From: an uncultured Flavihumibacter sp.
Lineage (GTDB): Bacteria > Bacteroidota > Bacteroidia > Chitinophagales > Chitinophagaceae
Assembly (NCBI GenBank): GCA_946481605.1
Contig: CAMLPA010000045.1
Span: 1 to 13,077 of the forward strand
Length of the DNA: 13,077 nucleotides
Direction: 5' to 3'
The number at the start of each line of letters is the position of its first letter. Within the stretch, counting starts at the first letter, position 1. Shown here one piece after another: positions 1-13,077 of this stretch. The translations under genes and the position numbers were made by a program. The notes under the pieces are model-generated. The model ran no database searches and was not told where the DNA came from. It saw only the letters and a program-made list of their open reading frames with translations.

Positions 1-1674
1 GGATACTACAGCTACAACGATAAAACGTACACTGTTTACAACCGTTCCGCGCTCAGTTACATTAAAACGGTTAACAGGCATAACTTCAACGCTTTTGTGT
101 TCAATGAACTGTCTTCTTATGGTTTCAGGGCGAATGCAATTGAACTGAACCAGACCAGCAACGACCAGATCGAAGGTCCGGTGGGTTACAACTGGACCCT
201 CTCCCGCGGCGGTACACTCAACAATGCGAAAGATACCCGTATCCACGGTTATGGCGGTACCATCTCTTATAACTTCGATACCAAATACGTGATCGACCTG
301 AGTTATCGTTGGGACGGAACTTCTACCAACGGACCCACCACCGGTTATACCCAAAACCCTTCGGTGAGTGCGCGCTGGAACTTTAACCGCGAAAACTTCT
401 TTGCCGATAAGGCCTGGCTCAGTTACGGTTCCATCAGGGCCGGATGGGGAAAGAACATCGTGCCCACCGGAAGTATCTTCGATGCCTACGGAACATACAG
501 CATCGGCAACAACTACAATGATGATCCCACTGTTTACATCAACTGGGGCAATATTCCGAACGACAATTTCAAACCCCAAACCAAAACCAAGTTCAACCTC
601 GGCTTCGAACTCGGTTTCCTGAACAACGCCATCAATACCACGGTGGAAACTTACTACGAATCGATGGACAATGAAGTGATGGAAGTACCACTTTCTGTAG
701 AGAATGGATTCTCCACCATCAAATCGAACGAAAGAAGTATGGTGAACTACGGCTATGAAATCACCGCCATGTTCCGGTTGCTGCCCCAGGGCCGTCCGTT
801 GCAATGGACCGTTTCAGGCACTTACGCCCTCAACAACCCCGTACTGACAAGATTACCAAACAACGAGCGCCAGCGGGTACAGAATTTTACAGACTCCGAT
901 AATTCGGGTGTGCCCATCGTTTACCGTCTTGGCATGTCGCCCTTCTCCAACCTGGTGTACCATACCGCAGGCGTATTCGCCAGCACCGCGGATGTACCCG
1001 TGAATCCACAAACCGGATTGCGCTTGCAGAACGGAAGGAATACCGGCGTTTATTTCCAGGGTGGAGATCCCATGTTCACGGATATCAATGGTGATTACAT
1101 TATCGATGAACAGGACCTGGTTTCAGCCGGTAACCCGTTACCGAGAATTACAGGCGGATTCAACTCACTGACTACTTACAAAAACTTCACCCTGAGTGTG
1201 AACCTTTCTTACACCATAAAAAGGGATTTGCTGAACAGCGCGTTGTCTGAAACTTTCCGCAACTTCTACAATCCTACTGCTGCCAATGCACTGGTACCGA
1301 TTGATGAATATGATTTCTGGAAGCCATCCGCGGATGATAAAGCCAGCGGCAGCGCAAATGCCACTTATCCGAATCCGTTCGATTTCAGAAGAGCGAACCT
1401 GATTCAGCCTTACCGTTACAATCAAACGCTTTTCATGGAAGATGGTTCTTACTGGAAGATCAACAACATCACCCTGAAATACAACTTTAACAGGAACTGG
1501 ACCAGGAGCATCGGGGTTACATCCGCCAATGTTTATTTAACACTCAACAACGTGTACACCTTCTCTAACTACTCCGGGCCTGATCCCGAACTGGTAAGCC
1601 AACTGGGAAGAGATGTTTCCGGCGGGTACCCCAACAGAAGGAGTATGGCCGTGGGCATGAACATTCAATTCTAA
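1..1674 (+). CDS. SusC/RagA-family TonB-dependent outer-membrane transporter, C-terminal half (5' partial)
   Basis: The reading frame is open from the first base, giving 557 residues. SusC proteins usually run to about 1000-1100 residues, so the signal peptide, carboxypeptidase-like domain, TonB box and plug lie left of the window. What remains is beta-barrel: alternating aromatic/polar strands, a C-terminal aromatic end (GMNIQF) typical of outer-membrane barrels, and late SusC signatures such as the DPE-containing loop near residues 527-531. Residues 361-372 read DINGDYIIDEQD, which fits a 12-residue EF-hand-like calcium loop and precedes a GNPLPRITGGF stretch; this pair is usual in SusC proteins. 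In the family, SusC forms the transport channel under a SusD lid and imports oligosaccharides or peptides using TonB energy. The next gene, 18 bases on, is the SusD partner. The substrate cannot be read from the barrel. Confidence 0.95.
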   Translation, partial: GYYSYNDKTYTVYNRSALSYIKTVNRHNFNAFVFNELSSYGFRANAIELNQTSNDQIEGPVGYNWTLSRGGTLNNAKDTRIHGYGGTISYNFDTKYVIDLSYRWDGTSTNGPTTGYTQNPSVSARWNFNRENFFADKAWLSYGSIRAGWGKNIVPTGSIFDAYGTYSIGNNYNDDPTVYINWGNIPNDNFKPQTKTKFNLGFELGFLNNAINTTVETYYESMDNEVMEVPLSVENGFSTIKSNERSMVNYGYEITAMFRLLPQGRPLQWTVSGTYALNNPVLTRLPNNERQRVQNFTDSDNSGVPIVYRLGMSPFSNLVYHTAGVFASTADVPVNPQTGLRLQNGRNTGVYFQGGDPMFTDINGDYIIDEQDLVSAGNPLPRITGGFNSLTTYKNFTLSVNLSYTIKRDLLNSALSETFRNFYNPTAANALVPIDEYDFWKPSADDKASGSANATYPNPFDFRRANLIQPYRYNQTLFMEDGSYWKINNITLKYNFNRNWTRSIGVTSANVYLTLNNVYTFSNYSGPDPELVSQLGRDVSGGYPNRRSMAVGMNIQF

Positions 1675-1692
1675 ACCGGGAAAGAAAGCAGG

Positions 1693-3279
1693 ATGCTAAA
1701 CAGAAAATCGACAACAATGAAACACAGACTGATCCATATATTACTGGTTTGCGCCGTGGCTGCCACAGGCTCCGGTTGCAAGAAGTTCCTGAACCTCGAT
1801 CCGCTGAGCAACCTCTCCGGAAACAACTTCTGGACCACCGAAGAGGACGTGGACAATTATACCAACGGCCTGTTTGAACTGTACCGCGCCGCCACTTTCA
1901 GGAGCAACATGAAATCGCCCGGAGGATCGGATGAATTTCCTTTCTTCGCTTTTTCCGGCGACATGCGTTTCGCGCCGGTGTATGAACCTTCCAACAGCGG
2001 ATGGGGACGTACCTATGTACAGTTCCTGCGTACCAATAACCTCAATCCCATTGTGCGTGGTACTTTTGGGTGGAGTGGCAACAACTGGTCTACTATATTT
2101 AATACTTCGCGTTTCATGAACTGGGACCGTTTGTTCAAGGTTGTGGCTGGTGCCAATGTGTTGGTGCAGGAAGTAGATGGCGTAGCCGTACTCTCCGATG
2201 AAATGAAAGCGAAATACAAGGCTGAAGGCGTGTTCATGCGCAATATGGCTTACTTTACCATGGTGCGTCTTTACGGCGATGTGCCTTATTATACCAATGC
2301 TTACAATTCCACGCCACTGGCCCGCACGAATATGATTGAAGTGTTGAAGAAATGCGTGGCCGATATGGAAGCACATTATCAGAACCTGCCCTGGACCTAT
2401 AACGACGCGGCAAGAAGAGCGGTGCGTGGCATGCGTGGCGGCGCCCTGGCGCTGATGATGCACATGAACATGTGGCTTGCTTCATTTGATCCCGGAAACG
2501 CCACCGATCACTATACGAAAACTGTGGCGTTCGGCGAAGAACTGATCAATGAAAACGGCGGCGCTTACGAACTGCTTCCTTACGACAACGGAAATTTCCG
2601 GGTAGTGTTCCGTGGCCGTTCCAAAGAAGGATTGTTTGAAATGCCACAGAACTCCAACTACGGCGAAAGCTTCGGCTGGTCTTATTATTCCGACCATGTT
2701 ACGCGTGCCTTTGTGGGCGGTACCACCACCAGGAGAAATACTTATCTGTATTATGCGCAGGCTTTCCTGGATGAAATTTATCCCAGCGGGGAACCCGATA
2801 TCCGGCGGTCAGATTGGTACGATGGTATCTATTCCACTACCGGTGAATTCTGGCTCACCAAATACAGCAATATCTTCCAGACTGAAAACAACGCTACTTA
2901 TGTGGACGACAGCCAGATCGTTTTCCGCCTGGGTGAATCTTACCTGATGCTGGCCGAAGCTTATGCGGCACTGAGCCGTAACGAAGAAGCCATCACCATG
3001 TTGAATACCATCCGTAACAGGGCACGCGCCACCGTATATTCTGGTCCGGGTGGAGACGAACTGAAAGAGGCGATATGGTATGAGCGTTGTAAGGAGTTGA
3101 TAGGAGAGGGACATTTCTCTTATGATATGATCCGTACCAGGAACGTGCTTGATCCTGACCTCAGCTTCGGCAACACGATCTCGCCCGAAGATTTCAAGAA
3201 CGGCGCATGGACCTGGCCCCTCAGCAATGCCGTGCGCAACAATAACCCGAACGTTACTTTAAATAATTACTGGAATTAA
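1693..3279 (+). CDS. SusD/RagB-family nutrient-binding outer-membrane lipoprotein
   Basis: The 528-residue length is normal for SusD. The N-terminus has a hydrophobic signal segment (about residues 12-28) ending in a lipobox with Cys29, followed by KKFLNLDPLSN, a typical mature SusD start. The C-terminal part carries the family's helical TPR-like signature: FRLGESYLMLAEAYAAL (412-428), then NEEAITMLNTIRNRA, and an IWYERCKELIGEG segment (from residue 461). SusD proteins form the hinged, substrate-binding lid of the SusC channel, and the preceding gene is that SusC. Two in-frame ATGs compete. The one used here follows a purine-rich stretch ending AGG; the one at 1717 (MKHRLIH...) gives a more classical signal peptide. 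The ligand is not predictable from sequence; from the neighbouring M60 peptidase, a glycopeptide or glycan is plausible. Confidence 0.95.
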   Translation: MLNRKSTTMKHRLIHILLVCAVAATGSGCKKFLNLDPLSNLSGNNFWTTEEDVDNYTNGLFELYRAATFRSNMKSPGGSDEFPFFAFSGDMRFAPVYEPSNSGWGRTYVQFLRTNNLNPIVRGTFGWSGNNWSTIFNTSRFMNWDRLFKVVAGANVLVQEVDGVAVLSDEMKAKYKAEGVFMRNMAYFTMVRLYGDVPYYTNAYNSTPLARTNMIEVLKKCVADMEAHYQNLPWTYNDAARRAVRGMRGGALALMMHMNMWLASFDPGNATDHYTKTVAFGEELINENGGAYELLPYDNGNFRVVFRGRSKEGLFEMPQNSNYGESFGWSYYSDHVTRAFVGGTTTRRNTYLYYAQAFLDEIYPSGEPDIRRSDWYDGIYSTTGEFWLTKYSNIFQTENNATYVDDSQIVFRLGESYLMLAEAYAALSRNEEAITMLNTIRNRARATVYSGPGGDELKEAIWYERCKELIGEGHFSYDMIRTRNVLDPDLSFGNTISPEDFKNGAWTWPLSNAVRNNNPNVTLNNYWN

Positions 3280-3299
3280 GGATCCATAAACCAACGCAG

Positions 3300-4052
3300 A
3301 TGATACCAGTTAAAAAAACAGGAGCAATCTCCATATTCCTGCTGATTCTTTTCAGCGGCTGTAAAAAAAGCAACTACCAGGATGGCGGTGTGCTGGACCC
3401 GGTTTTCAAGGGCTCATCCATGGAATACCTGGAATCGGGGAAAGGCATGTTTGATACATTGAATAAGGTTATCCGTTTCGCCGGAATGGAAGCAACCCTC
3501 CGCAACCAGGAGGTGACTTTCTTCGCGCCACCGGATCCCACTATCCAGCTCACGATCCGTTTAACGAATATGCTGCTCTATTCTTATGGAAAAGATACCA
3601 TCAGAAGAGTGGAGCAGGTAAAACCAGAAGTCTGGAAAAAAATGCTGGGCAAATATATGTTCGCGCACAAAAAATCATTGAATGATTACCCGCAGATAGA
3701 CTTCCTGAACATTCCTGTTTTTCCCGGACAGCCTTATGTTTCACTGGAAGGATCGGTGATGAACGTTGGCGTTGATTATGAAGATGCAGGTGGCATTCAG
3801 TATGCCGGCCTCAGAACTTTATACCTGTCATATATCAGGTCCATGTCTGCGCCTTCTAATTCCCTGTTGTCGGCTGGCGTTGCCACATCCAATATTCAAA
3901 CGGACAATGGCTATATTCACGTGCTCCGTTATGCGCTGAGTGGATTTGCCCTTGATCCCTCGCTGAACGACCTTGATCTTTCCACGCATTTTTTCGGTTT
4001 CGACCCTTTTCTGTTTTACAACGAGGCATTGAACGCGGGCATAGATCCATAA
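3300..4052 (+). CDS. Fasciclin (FAS1) domain lipoprotein
   Basis: The 250-residue protein has a short signal segment and a lipobox ending at Cys21 (CKKSNYQDGG), so it is predicted to be lipid-anchored. Residues about 40-215 fit a single, diverged FAS1 domain. The opening helix ends in TLNKVIRFAGMEATL, then comes an H1-like strand VTFFAPPDP (72-80, compare the family's FAPT/D pattern) and an H2-like hairpin ATSNIQTDNGYIHVLRY (195-211, compare the family's SNG-IHVID pattern). FAS1 domains generally mediate adhesion or binding of proteins or glycans; they are not enzymes. The gene sits 20 bases after susD and 34 before the next gene, so it probably serves the same surface complex as an accessory binding subunit. 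That role is inferred. The central part, residues 85-150, is poorly conserved with what I know of FAS1. Confidence 0.8.
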   Translation: MIPVKKTGAISIFLLILFSGCKKSNYQDGGVLDPVFKGSSMEYLESGKGMFDTLNKVIRFAGMEATLRNQEVTFFAPPDPTIQLTIRLTNMLLYSYGKDTIRRVEQVKPEVWKKMLGKYMFAHKKSLNDYPQIDFLNIPVFPGQPYVSLEGSVMNVGVDYEDAGGIQYAGLRTLYLSYIRSMSAPSNSLLSAGVATSNIQTDNGYIHVLRYALSGFALDPSLNDLDLSTHFFGFDPFLFYNEALNAGIDP

Positions 4053-4086
4053 AGCAATTCTGTTCCACCATTCTCAACTGAAAATT

Positions 4087-5730
4087 ATGAGCAAAACGCA
4101 TCGATCATACATGAAAAAATACTGGCTGCTGCCGGCAGGCATGGCGCTGTTCCTGTTTGCCTGCACGAAAGACAATCAAACCAGGGTGCAATTGTATCCC
4201 GAAGGACCAAAGGCTGAGATCAGGTTCCTGGATGGACTTCCCAGTCCCTCGCAGGGAAGGGCAGGTGCGCCCATTACTTTTAAAGTACTCGGGCTCAAAG
4301 GCAAGGAGAATAATTTCAAATTCCTGATGGGACAACTGGAAACCGAAGTAATAACCGTAACGGATAGCACTGTTACGGTGCGTGTGCCGGAAGATGCCAT
4401 TACCGGCGGAGCCGCTGTAGTGTACGACAACCAATATTATTTCGGTCCTCAATTCCGGGTAAGGGGCAATATTACAATTGACCCGGCTTTCAACGCTTTC
4501 AACGGCGCTGAAGGGACCATATATGACGTTGTGCCCGCTACAGGGTTGGCCAACAACTATATTGTGGCCGGTTTTTTCACCAACTACCAGAACCAGGGTA
4601 CGCCTGCGGCGCCGATCATTAACCTGGCCCGGATCAACGAAACGGGAGCACCTATGACTGCTACCAACGACAGGCTGCTCACGCGCACCGGTACTGAAGG
4701 TGGGGCAATCTATTCGATAGCTCCCATGTCCACCTCGCAATACCTGATCTCCGGTTTTTTCTCCAAATACAATGAAAGAGACGGGATCAGTTCCATTACC
4801 CGGGTGTACCAACGGGCGCAATTGGATACTGCTGTTGTCACACTTGTGAACCCTGATCCGATCAACAATCCGAATGACGACAGGGATACTGTTGCCACCT
4901 TCAATGGCGGTGTGAACGGTACCATCCGGCGCGCTTTTGAAACCGCTTCCGGACAAATTATCGCAGTGGGCTCTTTTACCCAATACCAAAGCTATTTTTA
5001 CGAGCGTTCCAGCAAGACCGCTAAAATAACCGACCGTGTTCTGATGAATACCGTATTGCGCATGAACAGCAACGGTACACTGGATTCCACTTTCAATTAC
5101 GACCTGGCTTTGCACCGCGGCAAACCCGGGGTGAACGGCGTTGTTTCGGAGGCCTTGCGTATTTCAGGCAACCGCATCGTGATCGTGGGCAATTTCACCA
5201 ACTACAACGGCAGCGCTGCCGGCAGGATCGTTGCAGTCAATGAAAGCGACGGCTCCGTTGCCACCAACTTCAATACCGGTACAGGAGCAGACGGGCTGAT
5301 TACCGCCGCCACATACAATGCCACCACAGGAAGAATACTGCTCACGGGCGAGTTCAGGAATTTTAACGGAACACCCGTGAACGGCGTGGTGATGCTGAAA
5401 ACGGACGGCTCCATTGATACAGGGTTTACCCTTGCACCCGTTGAAGGTGGAATGGTCACTTTCGCTTCCCAGCTCAATTCAGGTAAAATACTCATCGCCG
5501 GTAGTTTCCAGAAATACAATGGGAAGATCCGACCCGGTTTCGGTGTATTGGATGCCGCTGGAAATGCTATTCAGGGCTATAACAACTTAGGCGCCTTCAG
5601 CGGAACCGTGCACAAAGCGTTAGAAAGAACCACCGAACAGGGGTATCCGGGCGTAATACTCGTGGGCAACTTTACCCGGTTCGATAACACAGAAGTAAGG
5701 AATATCGTGTTCCTTGAAATCAGGAACTAA
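4087..5730 (+). CDS. Lipoprotein with IPT/TIG-like domain and seven-repeat (delta-60/DUF5122-type) predicted beta-propeller
   Basis: 547 residues with a signal peptide and lipobox ending at Cys26 (CTKDN). Residues about 42-126 look like an Ig-like IPT/TIG domain (DUF5008-type in my recollection), with a VTDSTVTVRVPEDA strand near its end. From residue 130 on, one motif recurs seven times: small or aliphatic residues, Gly, any residue, Phe, two residues, Tyr/Phe, Asn/Gln. Copies start near 158, 219, 291, 364, 417, 468 and 523 (for example IVIVGNFTNYNG and ILIAGSFQKYNG). Linking phrases such as NGTLDSTFN and DGSIDTGF match delta-60 repeats, known to form propeller blades. Ig-like plus propeller with a lipid anchor resembles surface glycan-binding proteins of SusCD loci; that role is inferred. 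An in-frame ATG at 4111 (MKKYWLL...) may be the true start. The next gene begins only 3 bases after the stop. Confidence 0.8.
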   Translation: MSKTHRSYMKKYWLLPAGMALFLFACTKDNQTRVQLYPEGPKAEIRFLDGLPSPSQGRAGAPITFKVLGLKGKENNFKFLMGQLETEVITVTDSTVTVRVPEDAITGGAAVVYDNQYYFGPQFRVRGNITIDPAFNAFNGAEGTIYDVVPATGLANNYIVAGFFTNYQNQGTPAAPIINLARINETGAPMTATNDRLLTRTGTEGGAIYSIAPMSTSQYLISGFFSKYNERDGISSITRVYQRAQLDTAVVTLVNPDPINNPNDDRDTVATFNGGVNGTIRRAFETASGQIIAVGSFTQYQSYFYERSSKTAKITDRVLMNTVLRMNSNGTLDSTFNYDLALHRGKPGVNGVVSEALRISGNRIVIVGNFTNYNGSAAGRIVAVNESDGSVATNFNTGTGADGLITAATYNATTGRILLTGEFRNFNGTPVNGVVMLKTDGSIDTGFTLAPVEGGMVTFASQLNSGKILIAGSFQKYNGKIRPGFGVLDAAGNAIQGYNNLGAFSGTVHKALERTTEQGYPGVILVGNFTRFDNTEVRNIVFLEIRN

Positions 5731-5733
5731 CCC

Positions 5734-7551
5734 ATGCTGAACATTAAAACATTGAAGATGCGCAAGAACATTTTTCATACTTTAATAGGAGTGGCTGCCA
5801 TAGCGGTTGCCACTAGTACCTATACCTCCTGTAATAAACCTTTTGAACCAACTTTACAGGAAGATTTCGGCACCGATGGCGGCGTTTCCAAAACGCAGAA
5901 AATGCTGGTGATAGTAGTGGACGGCGCCGTAGGGCTTGAAGTACAGAAAATTCAGCCCCCCTATATTTCCGTGCTCACCGACAACTCTATTTACTCCTGG
6001 AACGGACTCACGGATACCCGTAAAACGCCCGTTACCAATGCACTCGGCTGGACCAGTCTGCTCACCGGCGTAAACCAGGATAAACACAATGTGACCGGGG
6101 AAGATTTCACCGGCAACCAGTTGCAGCAATATCCTTCCGTATTTTCCAGGTTAAAGCAATTGCGCCCCGAATGGCGCACAGCAGCGTATGGCGCTTCCCA
6201 GGCGTTCATCACCAACCTGGCTGCAGACGCCACTGAAAAAGCTACTTTTTCCGGAAACGATGAAGCTGTAGCTGATGCAACATTGAACGATATCGCCACC
6301 AAAGATTCACGGCTGATCGTGGCGCAGTTTCACGATGTTGACCTGGCCGGACAGGCAGGTGGCTATTCCGAAGCAGATGCGGGCTACAAAGCTGCTGTGC
6401 TGAAAACGGATACCTATATCCGTGAGTTGGTAGAAGCATTGGGCAGAAGATCTACTTACAACCTGGAAAACTGGATGATCATTGTTACTTCCAACAAAGG
6501 TTCTGTTGTGGCCGATGATCCTGTTGCTGCCGATAAGCTGGCTTACGATGACTCCAGAAGGAATACCTTTTTTGTTTGTTATGCCCCCAATCTGAAAGTG
6601 AATTACCGTCCAGGTTCACTGCCTTTTTCTGGCAATACGCCTGTGTATCAGGGTGGCGCGCAACAGGCAACCAAAGCGCAAACACTGAATGCTGGAAGCA
6701 CATTGGATATTGGCGCTTCGGGCAGCTATACCATCGAATGCAAAGTGCGGATACCCACAGGGAACTATTATTACCCGGCCATACTTTCCAAAAGAGCAAG
6801 CTTCTCGGGCGGTGTGGTAGGATGGGTTTTCTTCCTGGAAGCCAATTTCTGGATGGTGAACTTCGGACAAACAGGGTTGGGAAACAGGCAAATCCGCGGA
6901 CACGCAATTTCTGATGGAAAATGGCACACACTCACTGTAACAATTAAGCAGGTAGATGCCACTACAAGAAGGGTAGAAACTTTTACAGACGGCATCTATT
7001 ATGATGGCGGGATTACTGACGGTACGCGGAATATTCATTCTTACGGAAACCTGAACAGTCCGGCACCACTTACTTTCGGACAACTCGGAGGGGACGATGT
7101 TACAGGGCTTAAGAATTACAATATTACAGATGTGAAAATTTATGACACAGCCTTTAGCAGGGAGTACATCGCTGCAAACTATTGCAGAACAAGCCATCCG
7201 CAGGAAGAAACCAATACTTTAGATAATCTCCTGGCGTATTGGTCCTGCCGTGATATCGCGAAAGTTAATGTGAATGGTACAGAGCGTGAAGCCTTGCTGG
7301 CGCAGTCTGGAAAAATTACCGATCAACAGGTATTGAGCAGTCTCGCTATGCCACTTACCGGCTCTTATGGCAAAACAAGTTTTGTGGAAGTGGTGAATGG
7401 AATATGCCCCACACCCGACGCGAATTCTTACAAAGTGGTACCTAACTCGGTTGACCTTGTAACCCAGTTGATGGCCTGGATGGGCGTTATGCCTACGAAA
7501 GAATGGGGGCTGGATGGAAGTACCTGGCTTACTTCCTACATGAATCTCTAA
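5734..7551 (+). CDS. Lipoprotein with degenerate alkaline-phosphatase/phosphodiesterase-like core and inserted LamG domain (copy 1)
   Basis: 605 residues; lipobox ends at Cys33. Residues 56-290 follow the alkaline phosphatase/nucleotide pyrophosphatase superfamily: VVDG (Asp63), a TSLLTGVNQDKHNV segment (107-120), VDLAGQAGGYS (202-212), a TDTYIREL helix and IIVTSNKGS (249-257). In active family members the third and fifth motifs read D-x-x-G-H and S-D-H-G. Here Asp203 is kept, but Gln207, Asn254 and Lys255 replace metal ligands, so hydrolase activity is doubtful. Residues about 318-480 fit a LamG/concanavalin-like lectin domain (SYTIECKVRIP, DGKWHTLTV, NITDVKIYD). The C-terminus (570-599, VDLVTQLMAWMGV then WGLDGSTW) corresponds to the region named DUF4983 in my recollection. 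It begins 3 bases after the previous stop; an ATG at 5758 (MRKNIF) is an equally good start. It is a diverged paralogue of the gene at 9646-11382. Function is probably binding, but a changed hydrolase is not excluded. Confidence 0.8.
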   Translation: MLNIKTLKMRKNIFHTLIGVAAIAVATSTYTSCNKPFEPTLQEDFGTDGGVSKTQKMLVIVVDGAVGLEVQKIQPPYISVLTDNSIYSWNGLTDTRKTPVTNALGWTSLLTGVNQDKHNVTGEDFTGNQLQQYPSVFSRLKQLRPEWRTAAYGASQAFITNLAADATEKATFSGNDEAVADATLNDIATKDSRLIVAQFHDVDLAGQAGGYSEADAGYKAAVLKTDTYIRELVEALGRRSTYNLENWMIIVTSNKGSVVADDPVAADKLAYDDSRRNTFFVCYAPNLKVNYRPGSLPFSGNTPVYQGGAQQATKAQTLNAGSTLDIGASGSYTIECKVRIPTGNYYYPAILSKRASFSGGVVGWVFFLEANFWMVNFGQTGLGNRQIRGHAISDGKWHTLTVTIKQVDATTRRVETFTDGIYYDGGITDGTRNIHSYGNLNSPAPLTFGQLGGDDVTGLKNYNITDVKIYDTAFSREYIAANYCRTSHPQEETNTLDNLLAYWSCRDIAKVNVNGTEREALLAQSGKITDQQVLSSLAMPLTGSYGKTSFVEVVNGICPTPDANSYKVVPNSVDLVTQLMAWMGVMPTKEWGLDGSTWLTSYMNL

Positions 7552-7602
7552 ACATACTGAACGAATTAATTGCTGGCCAAACCTTAACATAAACAAACTA
7601 GG

Positions 7603-9609
7603 ATGAGACCAAAACATACCGGAAAGAAACTGATGGCCCTGGCGCTTTCTTCCTTATTGCTGACGCAATGCGCGAAAAGCACGATCGATTTTGAAAGCGG
7701 GGTGGACGATGGCGGATTCGACGCGCCTTCCGTTACGGTAGATACCACCCGCGCCTTTGTGGACGTGAGTAAGTACGCGCAGGCCAGGGTTTTTCCCGGA
7801 CTCGTTTGCTCCTCGGAACCCCGGCTGGAAAACTTCCAGCTCACCATGAGCCTGAACTACAATTATGTGGCACAGAACCTGCGTATCTCTGTTCCGCCGC
7901 AACCCCAGTTCAGTACGGGACTATACGCTCCGCCAGGAGAACTGATTGTGATTGATGTACCTGCAGACTATTCACTCTCGCTCCAGATTGGCGCATGGAC
8001 GGATAACCTGAGCAATGTGCAGAATGCACCACGCGATCCTGTTATTTTCACCCGTACACAATTGGCGCCGGGAAGAAACTACGTGCGCAACCTGTATGGT
8101 GGACACATCTATATTTATGCCGCACGCCCGGTTACCACACCCGTTACATTTCGTATATCCGGTGCCGTTAAATCACCCGATTTTGAGCTGGGCAAATCCA
8201 ACAACGCAGAATGGGCCGCAGCCATTCGCAACTCTTGTGTTCCTTACCTTGAACTCCGCAGCCGGAATATGACCTTCGTGGTGCCCCGTGAATATTGCGT
8301 GGCCAGAAATATCCAGGATCCCGAAAGTATTATGACCGAATGGGATCGTGCCATTGATGTGGATGTTTACCAATGGGAGGGACTGGAAGATGATCCAGCC
8401 GAAGGCGTTGATCTGGCGCCCAGGTTGCCTTATCGCGTGGTGCAGGACATTAAGCCTTCCTTAGGTTATGGCCACAGCGGCTTCCCGATTGTTACTTACA
8501 ACGACTATGGCTGGTTCGATGAATACACCGACCTTACCACCATCCGCAAAGGATGGGCATGGGGTACCTTCCACGAACTCGGGCACAACAACCAGCAGGG
8601 CAACTACTGGAGCTGGGGCACATTGGGAGAAACCACCTGTAACCTGTTTTCCTTTAAAGCGGCACGCAGGCAAAGCATCGAAAAGAATAACCCCGCCGCA
8701 TGGCCACCGTTTCATCCTTCGCTCAATACTTCGTTCGCCAACGCACTCGCCTTCGCGGCAGCCACCGGAACAAAAAACTTTGACGGAACCGATGCACGCA
8801 TCAACGATCCTTTCTCCAGGCTCACCCCCTTTATCCAGGTATTTGAAAAAATACCCGCCGATTGGGGCTATCCCGGACAGCCGGATGGCTACGCGTTCAT
8901 GACCGAATTGTATAAAAAGGCAAGACGCGCCCAGCGCCCTTCCAACAACGACCAGGATAAAAGAGATTTTGTTTACGAAACACTTTGCGACTTTACCCGT
9001 AAGGACTGGCGCTTCTTCTTCAATGCCTGGGGTATGACCGTGAGCAATGTTTCGCTCACCGCCATCGAGAACAAAGGCTATCAATTGGTGACACAGGAAA
9101 TCTGGAAATACAACCCGCTCACAGGAACCGGCGGAAATACTTTCATTGATCTTTATGCACGAAGCAACTGGACCGTAACCTTCACTTCTTCCAATGCAGA
9201 AGGGATAGGCAGTTCAGGAAGTGTACAGGCTGCCGTACTGGATGGTAACCCTGCCACATACTGGCATACTTCTTATGGCCCAACAACAATGCCACAGGTG
9301 ATTACTGTGGATATGGGAAGAGTGCTGCCAATTAAAGGATTCAGCTTCGTGCAACGGCAGAGTTTGTCGAGGAACATTAAGAACCTGAAAGTGGAAATAA
9401 GCTCAGATAACACTAACTGGACAGCAGTAGATGGTAGTCCGCTGTTACTGCAGCGCATTGCTGCCGAACAGTTCTTTAACCTTCCTTCACAGGTTAACGC
9501 CCGCTATTTCAGGCTTTCCATCCTTTCAGCCGCGGATACTTACAATGGGTCGGCTGCACCTGACGGCAACAATATTTGTCTGGCGGAATTAAATGTGATC
9601 AAACCTTAA
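7603..9609 (+). CDS. M60-family (enhancin/mucinase-type) zinc metallopeptidase lipoprotein with C-terminal F5/8 type C domain
   Basis: 668 residues; lipobox ends at Cys23. An N-terminal beta region has the M60 hallmarks TGLYAPPGE (105-113) and YGGHIYIYA (165-173). The catalytic part contains HELGH (His324, Glu325, His328) and, 14 residues further, Glu343 in GETTCNLFS, which gives the complete M60 gluzincin pattern HExxH...E; nothing essential looks lost. Residues about 515-666 fit an F5/8 type C (discoidin/CBM32-like) domain: VLDGNPATYWHTSYG, PQVITVDMG, ARYFRLSIL and a terminal ICLAELNVI. Known M60 enzymes from gut bacteria and pathogens cut O-glycosylated proteins such as mucins next to the glycan, and the lectin-like domain usually aids substrate targeting. 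It is the only clear enzyme of the operon and so the best clue to its substrate. A surface location is inferred from the lipobox. Confidence 0.92.
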   Translation: MRPKHTGKKLMALALSSLLLTQCAKSTIDFESGVDDGGFDAPSVTVDTTRAFVDVSKYAQARVFPGLVCSSEPRLENFQLTMSLNYNYVAQNLRISVPPQPQFSTGLYAPPGELIVIDVPADYSLSLQIGAWTDNLSNVQNAPRDPVIFTRTQLAPGRNYVRNLYGGHIYIYAARPVTTPVTFRISGAVKSPDFELGKSNNAEWAAAIRNSCVPYLELRSRNMTFVVPREYCVARNIQDPESIMTEWDRAIDVDVYQWEGLEDDPAEGVDLAPRLPYRVVQDIKPSLGYGHSGFPIVTYNDYGWFDEYTDLTTIRKGWAWGTFHELGHNNQQGNYWSWGTLGETTCNLFSFKAARRQSIEKNNPAAWPPFHPSLNTSFANALAFAAATGTKNFDGTDARINDPFSRLTPFIQVFEKIPADWGYPGQPDGYAFMTELYKKARRAQRPSNNDQDKRDFVYETLCDFTRKDWRFFFNAWGMTVSNVSLTAIENKGYQLVTQEIWKYNPLTGTGGNTFIDLYARSNWTVTFTSSNAEGIGSSGSVQAAVLDGNPATYWHTSYGPTTMPQVITVDMGRVLPIKGFSFVQRQSLSRNIKNLKVEISSDNTNWTAVDGSPLLLQRIAAEQFFNLPSQVNARYFRLSILSAADTYNGSAAPDGNNICLAELNVIKP

Positions 9610-9645
9610 CAACAAGCTTTCATTCCTGAATCCGATAAAACAGTT

Positions 9646-11382
9646 ATGATGAAGAAAATGAATGTACATATAGCAAGGCTGGCGGTTACAACGACGCTGG
9701 TGGCTGCAATGGCGCTGCCCGCCTGTAAAAAGTATGCCGATCCACCGCCATTCTTTGAAGACGATAGTTCAGGAGCGGTACTGAACGGTAGGAAAGTAAT
9801 GCTCATCGTTATAGATGGTGGTGTTGCCCCTGCGCTAAAAACCATTGCGCCCCCTGCAATTACGGCCATGATGGAAAAGGGAAAGTACACGTACACTGCC
9901 CGTACGGAAGATGTTACCACTACCGGCGCTACCTGGAAAACGCTGGCTTCAGGCGTGTCTTATTCAAGACATAATATCTCCGATAGTTCACTGGTATATT
10001 CTGCTGCTTCGGGCGGCAACCAGCACGATGCGCCGGCCAACTATCCATCCTTCATGCAGTTCATTCTTACTTCCAGCAGGGCCGATATCAAAACATCGGT
10101 GATTTCTCCGTGGGGGTATATGGTGAACAAACTTTTTCCCGAAGCAGAAGATCCGGTGGTGGCAGCCAACGACCAGGCTGTTAAAGACAGTGCGCTTGCG
10201 CGCCTCAAAGCGCCTGATACCGATCTGATGCTGGTGCATTTTAATGGTGTGAACATCGCCGGGAAAGAGCATGGCTATTCCGCTACTGCTGAAGGGTACA
10301 AGCAAGCCATCCTGAAAGTGGATGGCTACATCGGCGAACTGATGGCCGCTATGAAAGCGCGTCCGGAATACAACAAACGGGAAGAATGGATGGTGATTGT
10401 AACTTCTTCTCATGGTGGAAACGGGAACAGTCATGGTGGTTCATCCCTGAATGAAACAAACGTATTCACGCTGTATTATAATGAGAATCTGAAAAAGCAG
10501 GAACTGATCCGTGGCGGATACAGTGGGGTGCAGATGGGCGGCAGAGATGCCACCGCCATCAGGGCAAGAATGGGAGATGCTGCGGCTTACGACCCCGGAA
10601 GAGGAGAGCAAACCGTGCAGATCAGGGTGAAAGGGAATGGCGCATACTATCCGCATTTCTTTTCCAAAATGGACAGATGGCCTTCCACGCCGGGATGGTC
10701 GATGTTTACTGCGGGCGGCGTTTGGGCCATGTCGGTAAGGTCAACAACAAGCGGGGAAGTAAGGATAGAAGGTTCTGCTACCAGCAAGACCGCTTTCGAT
10801 AACCAATGGCATACCATCACTATTGTATTTGCAGACAGCGCATCAAAACGATGGCTGCGCCGCTACACGGATGGTGTAAGGCACGACCAGCGCGATATAA
10901 CTTCCATCTATAATAACAACGGCTCTATCACTTCGCCTTCCCCGATAACCATCGGTTGGGGAGCAGACCCCGGTTATACCGGATCTGTTTTCTATTCTTC
11001 CGATGTAATGATCTTCAATACCGCGTTAACCGATACTGAGATTTCTTCCAATATCTGCCTGAAAGATGTAACCACACATCCTAAATACACCAATCTAATC
11101 GGTTATTGGCCAGGCACAGATGGTTACGGAAGTCAGTTCGTAAACAAAGCGCCCGGACAATCCACCAACTTCGTGCTTTCCGGTCCGTACAAATGGGCGG
11201 GATTAACAGATGTGCCCTGTTCGCTGAATCCGTTGGGCAGCGGAGAAATAGCTGTTCAGCCCGCGAATGTGGATATTGTGGCGCAGATGTTCTACTGGAT
11301 GCGGATTTCCGTGAACTCCTCCTGGAACCTGGATGGCAGCGGCTGGATTAATTTGTTTGAAAGAGAATTGGTGCAGTTGTAA
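9646..11382 (+). CDS. Lipoprotein with degenerate alkaline-phosphatase/phosphodiesterase-like core and inserted LamG domain (copy 2)
   Basis: 578 residues; lipobox ends at Cys27 (CKKYADPPPFFEDD). The layout equals that of the gene at 5734-7551: IVIDGG (Asp57), a WKTLASGVSYSRHN segment (97-110), FNGVNIAGKEHGYS (199-212), a VDGYIGEL helix and IVTSSHGG (251-258), then LamG (about 310-470; NQWHTITIVF, SSDVMIFNTAL) and the C-terminal VDIVAQMFYWM...WNLDGSGW segment (542-567). Between the two proteins the stretch around residues 198-256 is about half identical; the rest is much less alike, so the duplication is old or the copies came in separately. Metal-ligand positions differ again: Asn203, Lys207 and Ser255 replace the usual Asp, His and Asp, while His256 is kept, the reverse of copy 1. 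Two ATGs in tandem (9646, 9649) are both possible starts. As last gene of the operon it ends about 110 bases before the terminator. Confidence 0.8.
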   Translation: MMKKMNVHIARLAVTTTLVAAMALPACKKYADPPPFFEDDSSGAVLNGRKVMLIVIDGGVAPALKTIAPPAITAMMEKGKYTYTARTEDVTTTGATWKTLASGVSYSRHNISDSSLVYSAASGGNQHDAPANYPSFMQFILTSSRADIKTSVISPWGYMVNKLFPEAEDPVVAANDQAVKDSALARLKAPDTDLMLVHFNGVNIAGKEHGYSATAEGYKQAILKVDGYIGELMAAMKARPEYNKREEWMVIVTSSHGGNGNSHGGSSLNETNVFTLYYNENLKKQELIRGGYSGVQMGGRDATAIRARMGDAAAYDPGRGEQTVQIRVKGNGAYYPHFFSKMDRWPSTPGWSMFTAGGVWAMSVRSTTSGEVRIEGSATSKTAFDNQWHTITIVFADSASKRWLRRYTDGVRHDQRDITSIYNNNGSITSPSPITIGWGADPGYTGSVFYSSDVMIFNTALTDTEISSNICLKDVTTHPKYTNLIGYWPGTDGYGSQFVNKAPGQSTNFVLSGPYKWAGLTDVPCSLNPLGSGEIAVQPANVDIVAQMFYWMRISVNSSWNLDGSGWINLFERELVQL

Positions 11383-11393
11383 AACATGTTTTA
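11380..11393. repeat. 14-bp perfect palindrome over the stop codon of the last operon gene
   Basis: TAAAACATGTTTTA is its own reverse complement. It begins with the stop codon of the second LamG gene. It has no loop and no T-run after it, so it is not a normal terminator. It might be a protein-binding site or chance in AT-rich DNA; nothing else supports a role. Confidence 0.35.
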
Positions 11394-11491
11394 GAAAACC
11401 ATTAACAAACCTTTTATACGCCCTTATGTTATAATTGTATCAATTCAAATGAATTCTTTTTCATGTTGGTTGTTTTAAGGGTTAAAGAAAA

Positions 11492-11524
11492 ATCCCCCTG
11501 TATTTACAGGGGGATACTTTTTTT
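11492..11524 (+). terminator. Strong intrinsic (rho-independent) terminator of the operon
   Basis: The arms ATCCCCCTGTA (11492-11502) and TACAGGGGGAT (11505-11515) are perfectly complementary over 11 pairs around a TT centre, and the second arm is followed by AC and seven T (11518-11524). This is a textbook terminator for the upstream operon. An A-run precedes the first arm, so it could also stop transcription coming from the right. It ends only 18 bases before the porQ start codon. The rest of the 160-base gap from 11383 to 11542 is AT-rich and holds a short palindrome (AATTCA-AA-TGAATT, 11442-11455) but no promoter I trust. Confidence 0.9.
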
Positions 11525-11542
11525 ATTACCTATCTTCATTTG

Positions 11543-12574
11543 ATGAGAAGGTGGTGTTCAATCCTGTTCTTTATGTGGGTGCTTTGCCTTTCAACAAAAG
11601 CACAAACTTTGGGTGGCGAAACCACATTCAGTTTCCTTAAACTGCCTTTCTCTCCCCAACAATCCGCCCTCGGCGGTATCAATACAACGCAGTTTTCCAA
11701 TGATGTGTCACTTGCTTTCCATAATCCCGCACTTTTGTCGAAGGAAATGGACAGGCAACTCGCTACTTCCTTTAACAGCTTTTACGGAGGGATCAAAAAC
11801 TACGCGTTACAGTTTGCTTACCACCATCCAAAACTTGAAACGGATTTCTCAATCGGGACACATTTTCTGAACTATGGCGACGTACTTCAGACCGATGCCT
11901 CCGGTATGGAAATGGGCACCTTCCGGCCCCGGGATTTTGTACTTCAATTATCGGCGGCTCGTACTTACCTGGAAAAATGGCGCTACGGCGTTTCTGTAAA
12001 ATGGATCGGTTCAAATTACGGTATTGCCCGGGCAAATGGTATAGCCGTTGATGTGGGCGTTTTGTACAACGATACGGCAAACGGACTCAGGATCGCACTA
12101 ACGGCCATCAATATGGGCACGCAGTTCCGGACCTATGCCGGCCAGCAGGAAGAACTGCCGTTCGATCTTCAACTGGGCATTTCCAAAAAACTGGCAGAGG
12201 CCCCGCTTCAATTCAGTTTAAACCTTCACCACCTTCATCGCTTCGATATCCGGTACAACGATCCTCTTTTCAACGAGGAAGTAGGCGAGGAGAATACAGG
12301 TCGTTCCGGGTTGGATGGATTGTTCCGTCACGTGGTGGCGGGCGCACAACTTTTTTTGGGGCAGAAAGTAGAACTGAGTGCGGGCTATAATCACCTGCGT
12401 CGCCGGGAGTTAAATATCGCCAATACCGCCAACGGATTGAACGGGTTTTCCATGGGCATAGGTATGATCCTCGAAAAAATTCAGGTCAGGTACACAAGCA
12501 CCTGGTACCAGAACAACCGGGCCTACCAGCAATTGGGGCTTAATCTTCCCCTGAAATCTTACACAAAAATGTAG
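11543..12574 (+). CDS. porQ: Type IX secretion system protein PorQ (outer-membrane beta-barrel)
   Basis: 343 residues. A cleavable signal peptide (about residues 1-20, MRRWCS... ending STKA before QT) precedes the hallmark PorQ opening: GGETTFSFLKLP (24-35), SALGG (41-45) and DVSLAFHNPALL (54-65). The rest is alternating beta-strand sequence, as for the PorV/PorQ/PorP-like barrels; the length fits PorQ rather than the longer PorV. In the type IX system PorQ holds PorZ at the cell surface, within the complex that attaches secreted cargo to lipopolysaccharide. The ATG at 11543 is chosen because the signal peptide starts there; a TTG just before it (11540) would add one residue but is less likely. 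It lies behind the operon's terminator, so it is probably a separate core gene. None of the operon's lipoproteins ends in a recognisable type IX sorting domain. Confidence 0.85.
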   Translation: MRRWCSILFFMWVLCLSTKAQTLGGETTFSFLKLPFSPQQSALGGINTTQFSNDVSLAFHNPALLSKEMDRQLATSFNSFYGGIKNYALQFAYHHPKLETDFSIGTHFLNYGDVLQTDASGMEMGTFRPRDFVLQLSAARTYLEKWRYGVSVKWIGSNYGIARANGIAVDVGVLYNDTANGLRIALTAINMGTQFRTYAGQQEELPFDLQLGISKKLAEAPLQFSLNLHHLHRFDIRYNDPLFNEEVGEENTGRSGLDGLFRHVVAGAQLFLGQKVELSAGYNHLRRRELNIANTANGLNGFSMGIGMILEKIQVRYTSTWYQNNRAYQQLGLNLPLKSYTKM

Positions 12575-12601
12575 ATTGCTTGGAAGATTAGCCGGATAAT
12601 T

Positions 12602-12617
12602 ATATTTTTAAAAATAT
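12602..12617. repeat. 16-bp perfect AT-only palindrome between porQ and the response regulator gene
   Basis: ATATTTTTAAAAATAT is its own reverse complement and starts 28 bases after the porQ stop codon. Without any G or C, a hairpin here would be weak, so a terminator role for porQ is doubtful; a protein-binding site or chance is as likely. The whole 135-base gap (12575-12709) is strongly AT-rich compared with the genes around it and should contain the promoter of the next gene, but I could not fix a convincing element. Confidence 0.35.
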
Positions 12618-12709
12618 TCATTTGTTCGCTTACGAATAATAATTTACCCTTAGTGTCGTTAATAGAAAACCCTTTGAAAGCTCTTTAACTTTTAACAGAG
12701 CCAAAACTT

Positions 12710-13077
12710 ATGATTTCAGTTTTAATCGTGGACGACCACACCCTGGTTCGCGAAACCTGGAGCTTTATCCTGAAAACCAGCCCGTACATCAGCCATGTGG
12801 AAGAATGTGCCGATGGTATTTCCGCCATAGTAAAAGCATCGGAATACAAGCCCGACGTAATTCTGATGGACATCAACATGGAGCCCATCTCCGGCATTGA
12901 AGCATCCCGCCGCATACTGGAACAACATCCCGGTATAAAAATAATTGGCGTTTCCACCCATACAGATGCAGCTACCATCAAAAGAATGATCGCCGCTGGC
13001 GCAGCGGGATACGTTACCAAAACAAGTCCGGTAAGTGAGATGATCCACGCCATTCAACAGGTGATGGAAGGCGGGAA
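12710..13077 (+). CDS. Response regulator, NarL/FixJ-type receiver domain (3' partial)
   Basis: From ATG at 12710 the frame stays open to the right edge: 122 residues, all receiver domain. It has the acidic pair Asp8-Asp9 in LIVDDH, the phosphoacceptor Asp54 in ILMDINM, the switch Ser82 in IGVSTH and the conserved Lys104 in GYVTKTS. The opening (ISVLIVDDHTLVRE) and the AGAAGYVTK stretch are typical of the NarL/FixJ group, whose members carry a LuxR-type helix-turn-helix after the receiver; that part would lie beyond the window. Such proteins are phosphorylated by a sensor histidine kinase and control transcription. No kinase is in the window. The 135-base AT-rich gap before it suggests its own promoter. 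A link to the upstream operon or to porQ is not shown. Confidence 0.93.
   Translation, partial: MISVLIVDDHTLVRETWSFILKTSPYISHVEECADGISAIVKASEYKPDVILMDINMEPISGIEASRRILEQHPGIKIIGVSTHTDAATIKRMIAAGAAGYVTKTSPVSEMIHAIQQVMEGG

Follow-up and report, generated by a model that had tools for sequence, protein, structure and literature searches.

Which cargo would a SusCD locus of Bacteroidota import when its core encodes an M60 peptidase and no glycoside hydrolase (GH)? The question is raised by a stretch of 13,077 nucleotides from an uncultured Flavihumibacter sp. (assembly GCA_946481605.1, contig CAMLPA010000045.1, positions 1 to 13,077), hereafter the window, in which seven collinear open reading frames (ORFs) with intergenic gaps of 3-51 bp occupy positions 1-11382 of the plus strand. 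The best explanation, which we regard as fairly probable, is that they belong to an eleven-gene operon encoding a surface O-glycopeptidase together with a glycopeptide capture and import machine; the window would then hold roughly the downstream six and a half of the eleven genes, in a host close to Chitinophagaceae. Gene order, its conservation, purifying selection, the zinc motif of M60, the eroded sites of two phosphodiesterase-like proteins (PDE1 and PDE2), twin SusCD pairs in 20 of 20 relatives and an exchange of M60-PDE2 are the sequence evidence that points in this direction.

Gene content of the window

Family matches confirmed the gene set claimed in an earlier note on this DNA. The first ORF (1..1674, +; TIGR04056, E 1.8e-86) is the 3' part of SusC1, a TonB-dependent outer-membrane transporter gene open at its 5' end; the match spans positions 465-981 of the 981-position profile, and its score falls below the curated TIGR04056 cut-off because the gene is partial, the 5' half lying outside the window. 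It is followed on the plus strand by the SusD1 lipoprotein (1693..3279; PF07980, 6.4e-18, and PF14322), a FAS1 (fasciclin) lipoprotein (3300..4052; PF02469 at E 2.6e-5, barely above the cut-off, in a slot conserved in relatives) and PROP, a lipoprotein with TIG/DUF5008 and a DUF5122 beta-propeller (4087..5730; PF16400, PF17160, PF01833 and PF17164, with E 8.7e-11 for DUF5008/TIG and 9.7e-20 for the propeller). Next come PDE1, a lipoprotein combining a phosphodiesterase-like domain of the alkaline-phosphatase superfamily with a LamG-like domain (5734..7551; PF01663, E 1.6e-7), the M60 metallopeptidase lipoprotein with M60-like_N, M60 and F5/8 type C (CBM32-like) domains (7603..9609; PF17291, PF13402 at E 1e-35, PF00754), and PDE2, a phosphodiesterase-like lipoprotein with LamG and DUF4983 (9646..11382; PF01663, 4.7e-12; PF16356, 1.4e-10; PF13385, 6e-7). 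DUF4983 is clear only in PDE2 of the two window copies, the LamG and DUF4983 matches of PDE1 being weak (0.012 and 0.032).

The adjacent susC and susD genes by which a polysaccharide utilization locus (PUL) is recognized stand side by side (TIGR04056 and PF07980, 1-3279), and carbohydrate-active enzymes (CAZymes) within the locus are missing from the window: in a family profile scan of its seven genes, no GH, polysaccharide lyase (PL) or carbohydrate esterase family was above the cut-off. From SusD1 to PDE2, all proteins have a hydrophobic leader followed by Cys at residues 21-33. The lipoprotein calls come from sequence patterns and not from a signal-peptide program; a strict lipobox matches three of the six (SusD, FAS1 and PDE2), and a looser one, requiring Cys behind a small residue close to the start, is found among relatives in 38/40 SusD, 40/40 FAS1, 40/41 PROP, 41/41 PDE1, 36/41 M60 and 39/41 PDE2.

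The nearest relative, G045, has a PROP 93% identical to that of the window, a SusC1 with 99.1% identity over 536 codons and, like the window, PorQ after PDE2. By a simple counting method applied to this one pair, omega was 0.010 for SusC, 0.020 for SusD, 0.069 for FAS1, 0.061 for PROP, 0.055 for PDE1, 0.030 for M60, 0.098 for PDE2 and 0.075 for PorQ. All seven window genes are under purifying selection, and a decaying locus was rejected since omega was at most 0.098.

Conservation and extent of the locus

In an M60 profile scan of genome contigs, at least 588 stretches matched, 522 were confirmed and the best 80 were kept as loci, with slots in relatives labelled by best phmmer hits. Forty of these best 80 (L001-L038, L040 and L048) come from Chitinophagaceae, Sphingobacteriaceae or a Bacteroidetes metagenome-assembled genome, and 33 of the 40 have exactly the order DUF5007-SusC-SusD-FAS1-PROP-PDE1-M60-PDE2, so that the gene set is conserved in relatives in the order described earlier and a chance array can be rejected. 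The seven exceptions end at a contig edge (L010, L018, L036), have one slot made unreadable by masking (L020, L021), carry two M60 genes (L024) or keep the same order with broken frames (L048). The remaining 40 loci (Odoribacter, Culturomica, Verrucomicrobia, Planctomycetes and others) are without this chassis, as we call the block up to PDE1, and tblastn of them gave matches only in L041 (SusC, SusD) and L069 (PROP-like). In L041, from Odoribacter, SusC, two SusD-type genes, two fasciclin genes and GH29 surround M60, which is a looser parallel.

Because M60 was present in the 40 loci by selection, whole genomes were also drawn, 117 from Chitinophagaceae (its centre, G001, was already among the M60 loci) and 116 from Sphingobacteriaceae (G003 and G004 likewise). 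In the Chitinophagaceae draw, DUF4983 was found in 11 genomes and M60 in 11, adjoining in 9; strong DUF5007 matches occurred at 12 places in 11 genomes, 9 of them with M60 downstream, and 9 of 15 M60 places were within the locus. In the Sphingobacteriaceae draw, strong DUF5007 places numbered 37, one of which was counted from two pieces, and 12 of them had M60 downstream. Among 295 Bacteroidales genomes, DUF4983 was above the cut-off in none, DUF5007 in one and M60 in 18, and two weak DUF5007 loci of that order (L106-L109) contained only SusC-SusD-small protein-DUF5007. DUF5008 was above the cut-off in none of 393 Bacteroidales genomes, but the controls were silent too, hence its absence is not established.

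G045 was also used as a proxy for the DNA upstream of the window. Going upstream from SusC1, it has DUF5007, FAS1b, SusD2 and SusC2, followed by a Lon protease gene; FAS1b is a FAS1-like lipoprotein with a phmmer match to FAS1 (29 bits) and none in Pfam. The triple SusC2-SusD2-FAS1b stands before DUF5007 in all 20 M60-type loci read upstream (L101-L105, L132-L146). The seven-gene extent first assigned to the locus was too small, as relatives have four more genes upstream, with a second SusCD pair. The complete operon would be SusC2-SusD2-FAS1b-DUF5007-SusC1-SusD1-FAS1-PROP-PDE1-M60-PDE2, eleven genes with two SusCD pairs, in which the upstream part of the window is supplied from its relatives.

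According to the earlier note, GHs and a sugar-responsive regulator directly upstream would speak against its proposal. In G045, neither was recognized: Lon adjoins SusC2, and inspection by eye only showed nothing regulatory in the 9.5 kb beyond SusC2 and no GH beyond Lon. Among the 20 relatives the picture is less uniform, with a LacI-type gene beside SusC2 in three (L105, L135 and L145, Pfam-confirmed for L105 only), GH29 as the next gene upstream in two (0.9 kb away in L134, in two fragments in L133) and GH88 beyond the LacI gene in L105.

The M60 peptidase and the phosphodiesterase-like proteins

Among the M60 structures that the M60 profile matches are the O-glycopeptidases BcM60C/K/F/B (E 6e-16 to 4e-6). 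In the alignment used for the M60 scan, made of the window protein and 31 others picked from 120 of 402 matches, the zinc ligands H324, H328 and E343 were invariant in the 32 sequences and E325 was present in at least 90%; the HExxH...E pattern is found in the M60 of 40/41 relatives and is intact in the window copy. Work on M60 peptidases has dealt mainly with their role as mucinases in host-associated microbes. Cleavage of O-glycoproteins at the surface is the likeliest activity, as predicted from the family and from work on BT4244 of Bacteroides thetaiotaomicron (B. theta; PMC11992087). Some M60 homologues are longer, with about 814-816 aa (the M60 slot of L002; P0120-P0122, P0124-P0126, P0130) versus 668 in the window, and PF24607 is present in P0120, P0121, P0122 and P0130.

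A PDE profile was made from 65 proteins and aligned to PDB sequences over the catalytic motifs. It matches Xanthomonas NPP 2gsn as well as 7mw8 and 7n1s, apparently variants of the same protein. We take the active-site positions of NPP to be T90 for the nucleophile and D54, D210, H214, D257 and H258 for the metal ligands. Of these six, PDE1 proteins keep 0-2 and PDE2 proteins 1-3 (n=41 each, a number that slightly overstates independence, as the L016 and L093 rows are identical in sequence). PDE1 of the window is canonical at two positions (D54, D210) and PDE2 at three (D54, Thr at the nucleophile position, H258), and all 82 proteins lack Asp at the D257 position, which belongs to the DHG motif. 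By contrast, L084_6, a neighbouring enzyme in one relative, keeps the VDG, DHG and GHG motifs (by eye). The description of the two proteins as phosphatase-like holds for the fold but not for the catalytic residues, which are mostly lost; neither PDE1 nor PDE2 has the full catalytic site of a Type I phosphodiesterase/NPP, and both are predicted to be catalytically dead and are probably binding proteins.

Proposed function

In the mechanism proposed here, the surface lipoproteins (the PDE1/PDE2 LamG pair, PROP, FAS1, DUF5007 and the F5/8 domain of M60) would hold the substrate, M60 would cut the peptide backbone beside the glycans, both SusCD pairs would import the glycopeptides, and the glycans would be trimmed by enzymes encoded elsewhere, which in some relatives adjoin (GH2, GH27, GH29, GH20). 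The substrate class, the surface location, the binding role of PDE1 and PDE2 and the import of glycopeptides are, like the upstream genes of the window, what this mechanism adds to the genes read. The dedicated glycoprotein capture and import system suggested earlier is partly supported, in that the gene set is conserved as a block to which M60 belongs in one group of loci; its cargo we infer from the M60 family. Conserved across Chitinophagaceae and Sphingobacteriaceae, an M60 locus with a CAZyme-free core and two SusCD pairs is a clean genetic system in which to ask whether SusCD pairs import glycopeptides, which targets M60 has outside animals, and what part several lipoproteins of the DUF type and a family of presumably dead phosphodiesterases play on the Bacteroidota surface.

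Several observations weigh against this explanation. M60 is found outside the locus at 6 of the 15 Chitinophagaceae places and at 28 of the 40 Sphingobacteriaceae places, where the other 12 are linked to it. At 25 of the 37 strong DUF5007 places in Sphingobacteriaceae there is no M60 downstream, M60-free chassis being commoner there, and the transporters may mainly carry something else, with M60 as an add-on. The M60 orthologue of Niabella drilacis (L003) is without HExxH...E in an otherwise complete locus, and the genera of the relatives are mostly soil or water bacteria, in whose surroundings mucin is scarce. As for the predicted loss of catalysis, D54 is kept in 37/41 PDE1 and 39/41 PDE2 and H258 in 34/41 PDE2, indicating that these residues still matter for something, and PDE1 keeps one further aspartate ligand in 20/41, so that a non-canonical activity is possible.

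PDE1 and PDE2 might instead be active enzymes whose metal site is reduced, single-metal phosphoesterases for instance, which desulfate or dephosphorylate the glycan before the M60 cut. We consider this improbable: the retained first Asp and last His ligands and the strong purifying selection would fit, but the DHG-motif Asp is missing in 82/82, Thr or Ser occupies the nucleophile position in 5/41 PDE2, and the domain, judging from its limits, appears to stop short of the last metal His.

Exchange of the M60-PDE2 module

In Sphingobacteriaceae, 22 of the 25 chassis places lacking M60 were examined (20 as L112-L131, plus L083 and L085), together with L081, L084, L110 and L111 from Chitinophagaceae genomes. 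Of the 20 loci L112-L131, 17 have the whole stretch from DUF5007 to PDE1, as do L081 and L083-L085. After PDE1, M60-PDE2 is replaced by a relative of the F5/8 or PA14 lipoproteins of L081, L083 and L085 in 18 of the 20 and by a PKD-F5/8 relative in 16, and M60 is found in none. Both SusCD pairs are present up to PROP in L110 and L111; PDE1 was unrecognized in L111, and L110 is partly masked, hence not fully readable.

In a tree built from 70 PROP rows, 44 of M60 type (the window among them) and 26 not, a single branch splits the two kinds with support 100/99, and one change between M60 and non-M60 was counted, a number as low as which was reached in 0/500 shuffles. The tree is midpoint-rooted only, and the long branches L084 and L111 meet in it, both within the non-M60 group. 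M60-PDE2 is a swappable module that, to judge from this tree, was probably gained, or lost, once.

A wider proposal, which we put forward only tentatively and hold to be rather doubtful, is that the two-transporter chassis (SusC2-SusD2-FAS1b-DUF5007-SusC1-SusD1-FAS1-PROP-PDE1) is a platform exchanging enzyme or binding modules, on which one clade once acquired an M60 O-glycopeptidase and a second pseudo-phosphodiesterase. The product would be a glycopeptide importer for non-animal O-glycoproteins (plant arabinogalactan-protein (AGP)/extensin-like, fungal or microbial), with the dead alkaline-phosphatase-fold pair as glycan-capturing arms; if true, this would be a new use of the alkaline-phosphatase fold and an M60 system directed outside mucins. 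In five non-M60 loci of Sphingobacteriaceae (L083, L114, L115, L117, L118), a GtaA-type protein follows, of the family called glutaminase A; that of L083 is DUF4964/DUF5127/GtaA hairpin by Pfam.

CAZymes and other neighbours in relatives

The absence of GHs noted for this DNA holds for the core of 11.4 kb but not for its surroundings in relatives. When the next same-strand genes with gaps of at most 400 bp were counted in 45 M60-type loci, with part of the flanking ORFs scanned, a CAZyme was downstream in at least 12 (L005, L011, L012, L014, L016, L024, L028, L029, L037 and L091-L093), although some of the labels come from phmmer alone and L016 and L093 are one species. The types were GH2-, GH20- and GH29-type, PL8 and arabinofuranosidase: GH2 and GH27 in L011, L012 and L014 (with a second M60 in two of the three), NHL, PL8 and GH29 in L024, and arabinofuranosidase in L037. 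In L026 and L032, GH2, GH29 and GH20 are downstream at more than 400 bp. Other relatives have plainly unrelated downstream genes (RND pump, FAD oxidase, glycosyltransferase).

Behind the core of the Pinibacter relatives (L016:13927-20165, also L092 and L093), there are genes for DUF3472, the phosphodiester glycosidase NAGPA, a metallophosphatase (by Pfam in L016) and a GH2-like protein. These neighbours hint at a phosphorylated glycan.

Comparison with known systems

No description of the locus was found in open-licence PMC papers, in which DUF4983 is likewise unmentioned, whereas two of them mention DUF5007, DUF5008, DUF5122 or DUF5124. The composition had been thought unlike any characterized locus, but the B. 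theta loci BT4240-50 and BT3010-3017 are already in print (PMC11992087, PMC13176161; these and the other papers cited are represented by excerpts). For BT4240-50, which has M60 and SusCD, glycopeptide import was proposed, and RagAB and BT2263-64 are cited as precedents for SusCD peptide import (PMC11992087). Like the window, this locus (BT4244-M60L, BT4246/47 SusD/C, BT4245 SGBP) has SusCD, a surface M60 with CBM32 and a surface glycan-binding lipoprotein; it differs in having a single SusCD pair and glycosidases, the latter encoded by the second operon of this PUL, and the excerpted account names no DUF5007, FAS1, DUF5008 propeller or phosphodiesterase-like proteins (PMC11992087). BT3013 (7BLL), the solved SusD nearest to that of BT4240-50, gave no match to the window SusD even at E 10.

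PUL-45 (BT3010-BT3017, with M60 BT3015, SusD BT3013 and 'phosphatase' BT3017) is upregulated on porcine mucosal glycans and, like the window, is CAZyme-free and combines M60 with SusCD and a phosphatase-like protein; it differs in its ECF sigma/anti-sigma control and in the single SusC and SusD named in the excerpts (PMC11992087, PMC13176161). BT3015 and BT3017 are likened here to the window proteins by description, not by sequence. A CAZyme-free M60/SusCD locus is thus not unprecedented (PMC11992087), and it is the two transporter pairs and the two apparently catalytically dead phosphatase-like proteins that look unusual.

The gene labels of PUL5 (BT0268-BT0279) resemble the chassis, with two SusD, DUF5007 between them, DUF5124, and carbohydrate-binding and alkaline phosphatase family proteins; it differs in that no M60 is named in the excerpt (PMC10434189) and in its induction by arabinogalactan under a hybrid two-component system regulator (PMC6874557). 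The order SusC-SusD-x-DUF5007-SusC-SusD-x-DUF5124 with a phosphatase-like protein is present in the relatives of the window; with the B. theta side known by annotation labels and not by sequence, the two are probably the same chassis. The best PDB match of SusD1 is 3iv0 (E 6e-92; next 2.8e-18), which we take to be B. theta BT0273; in that case, the M60 group would be a form of an arabinogalactan(-protein) importer adapted to O-glycoproteins.

The best explanation also has a narrower variant directed at plants: the chassis would be an arabinogalactan(-protein) uptake system like PUL5, and M60 would strip off or open up the protein portion of AGP-like glycoproteins from plants. We regard it as possible but doubtful. 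BT0269-75 are labelled SusD, hypothetical, DUF5007, SusD and DUF5124, and BT0277-79 carbohydrate-binding protein, alkaline phosphatase family protein and hypothetical protein (PMC10434189), with members and order as in the chassis, and BT0268 is the SusC gene of the arabinogalactan-induced locus (PMC6874557, PMC5061871). Also in favour are the 3iv0 match of the window SusD, far above any other structure, and GH2, GH27, arabinofuranosidase and GH88 near the core in some relatives. On the other side, the comparison with the B. theta genes is one of labels only, DUF5007 and DUF5008 (the latter with silent controls) are in 1/295 and 0/393 Bacteroidales genomes, GH20 and PL8 in other relatives point to amino sugars, and M60 enzymes are known for mucin-type and not hydroxyproline-linked glycans.

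We judge it unlikely that the cargo is something other than glycoprotein, for example phosphoglycans or glycoprotein-bound iron or heme, for which M60 would be a helper that releases the ligand. The same-label B. theta genes are listed in an iron stimulon table (PMC10434189), NAGPA, metallophosphatase and DUF3472 adjoin the core in L016, and some chassis loci have binding lipoproteins and not an enzyme in the M60 slot; yet the family scans of the core genes yielded no heme or siderophore family, and the documented inducer of BT0268 is arabinogalactan (PMC6874557, PMC5061871).

Downstream boundary of the locus

The eleven-gene operon probably ends at a bidirectional terminator-like hairpin (11492..11515) with a 10-bp stem, the longest among 22 patterns detected (shuffles give 14.8 patterns, sd 4.2). 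The genes downstream of PDE2 look unrelated to the locus, and an Rfam scan of the window gave no match, so that a known RNA element was rejected. PorQ (type IX secretion; 11540-12574, by profile match) was rejected as a locus member, since the hairpin and a 157-bp gap after PDE2 intervene and, among the relatives tabulated, it follows in L089 only. Both the window and this nearest relative (L089:6042-7073) have it after the locus, with no such label behind the other tabulated relatives. The start of a response-regulator gene (12710-13075), with a receiver domain recognized by eye, is cut by the end of the window.

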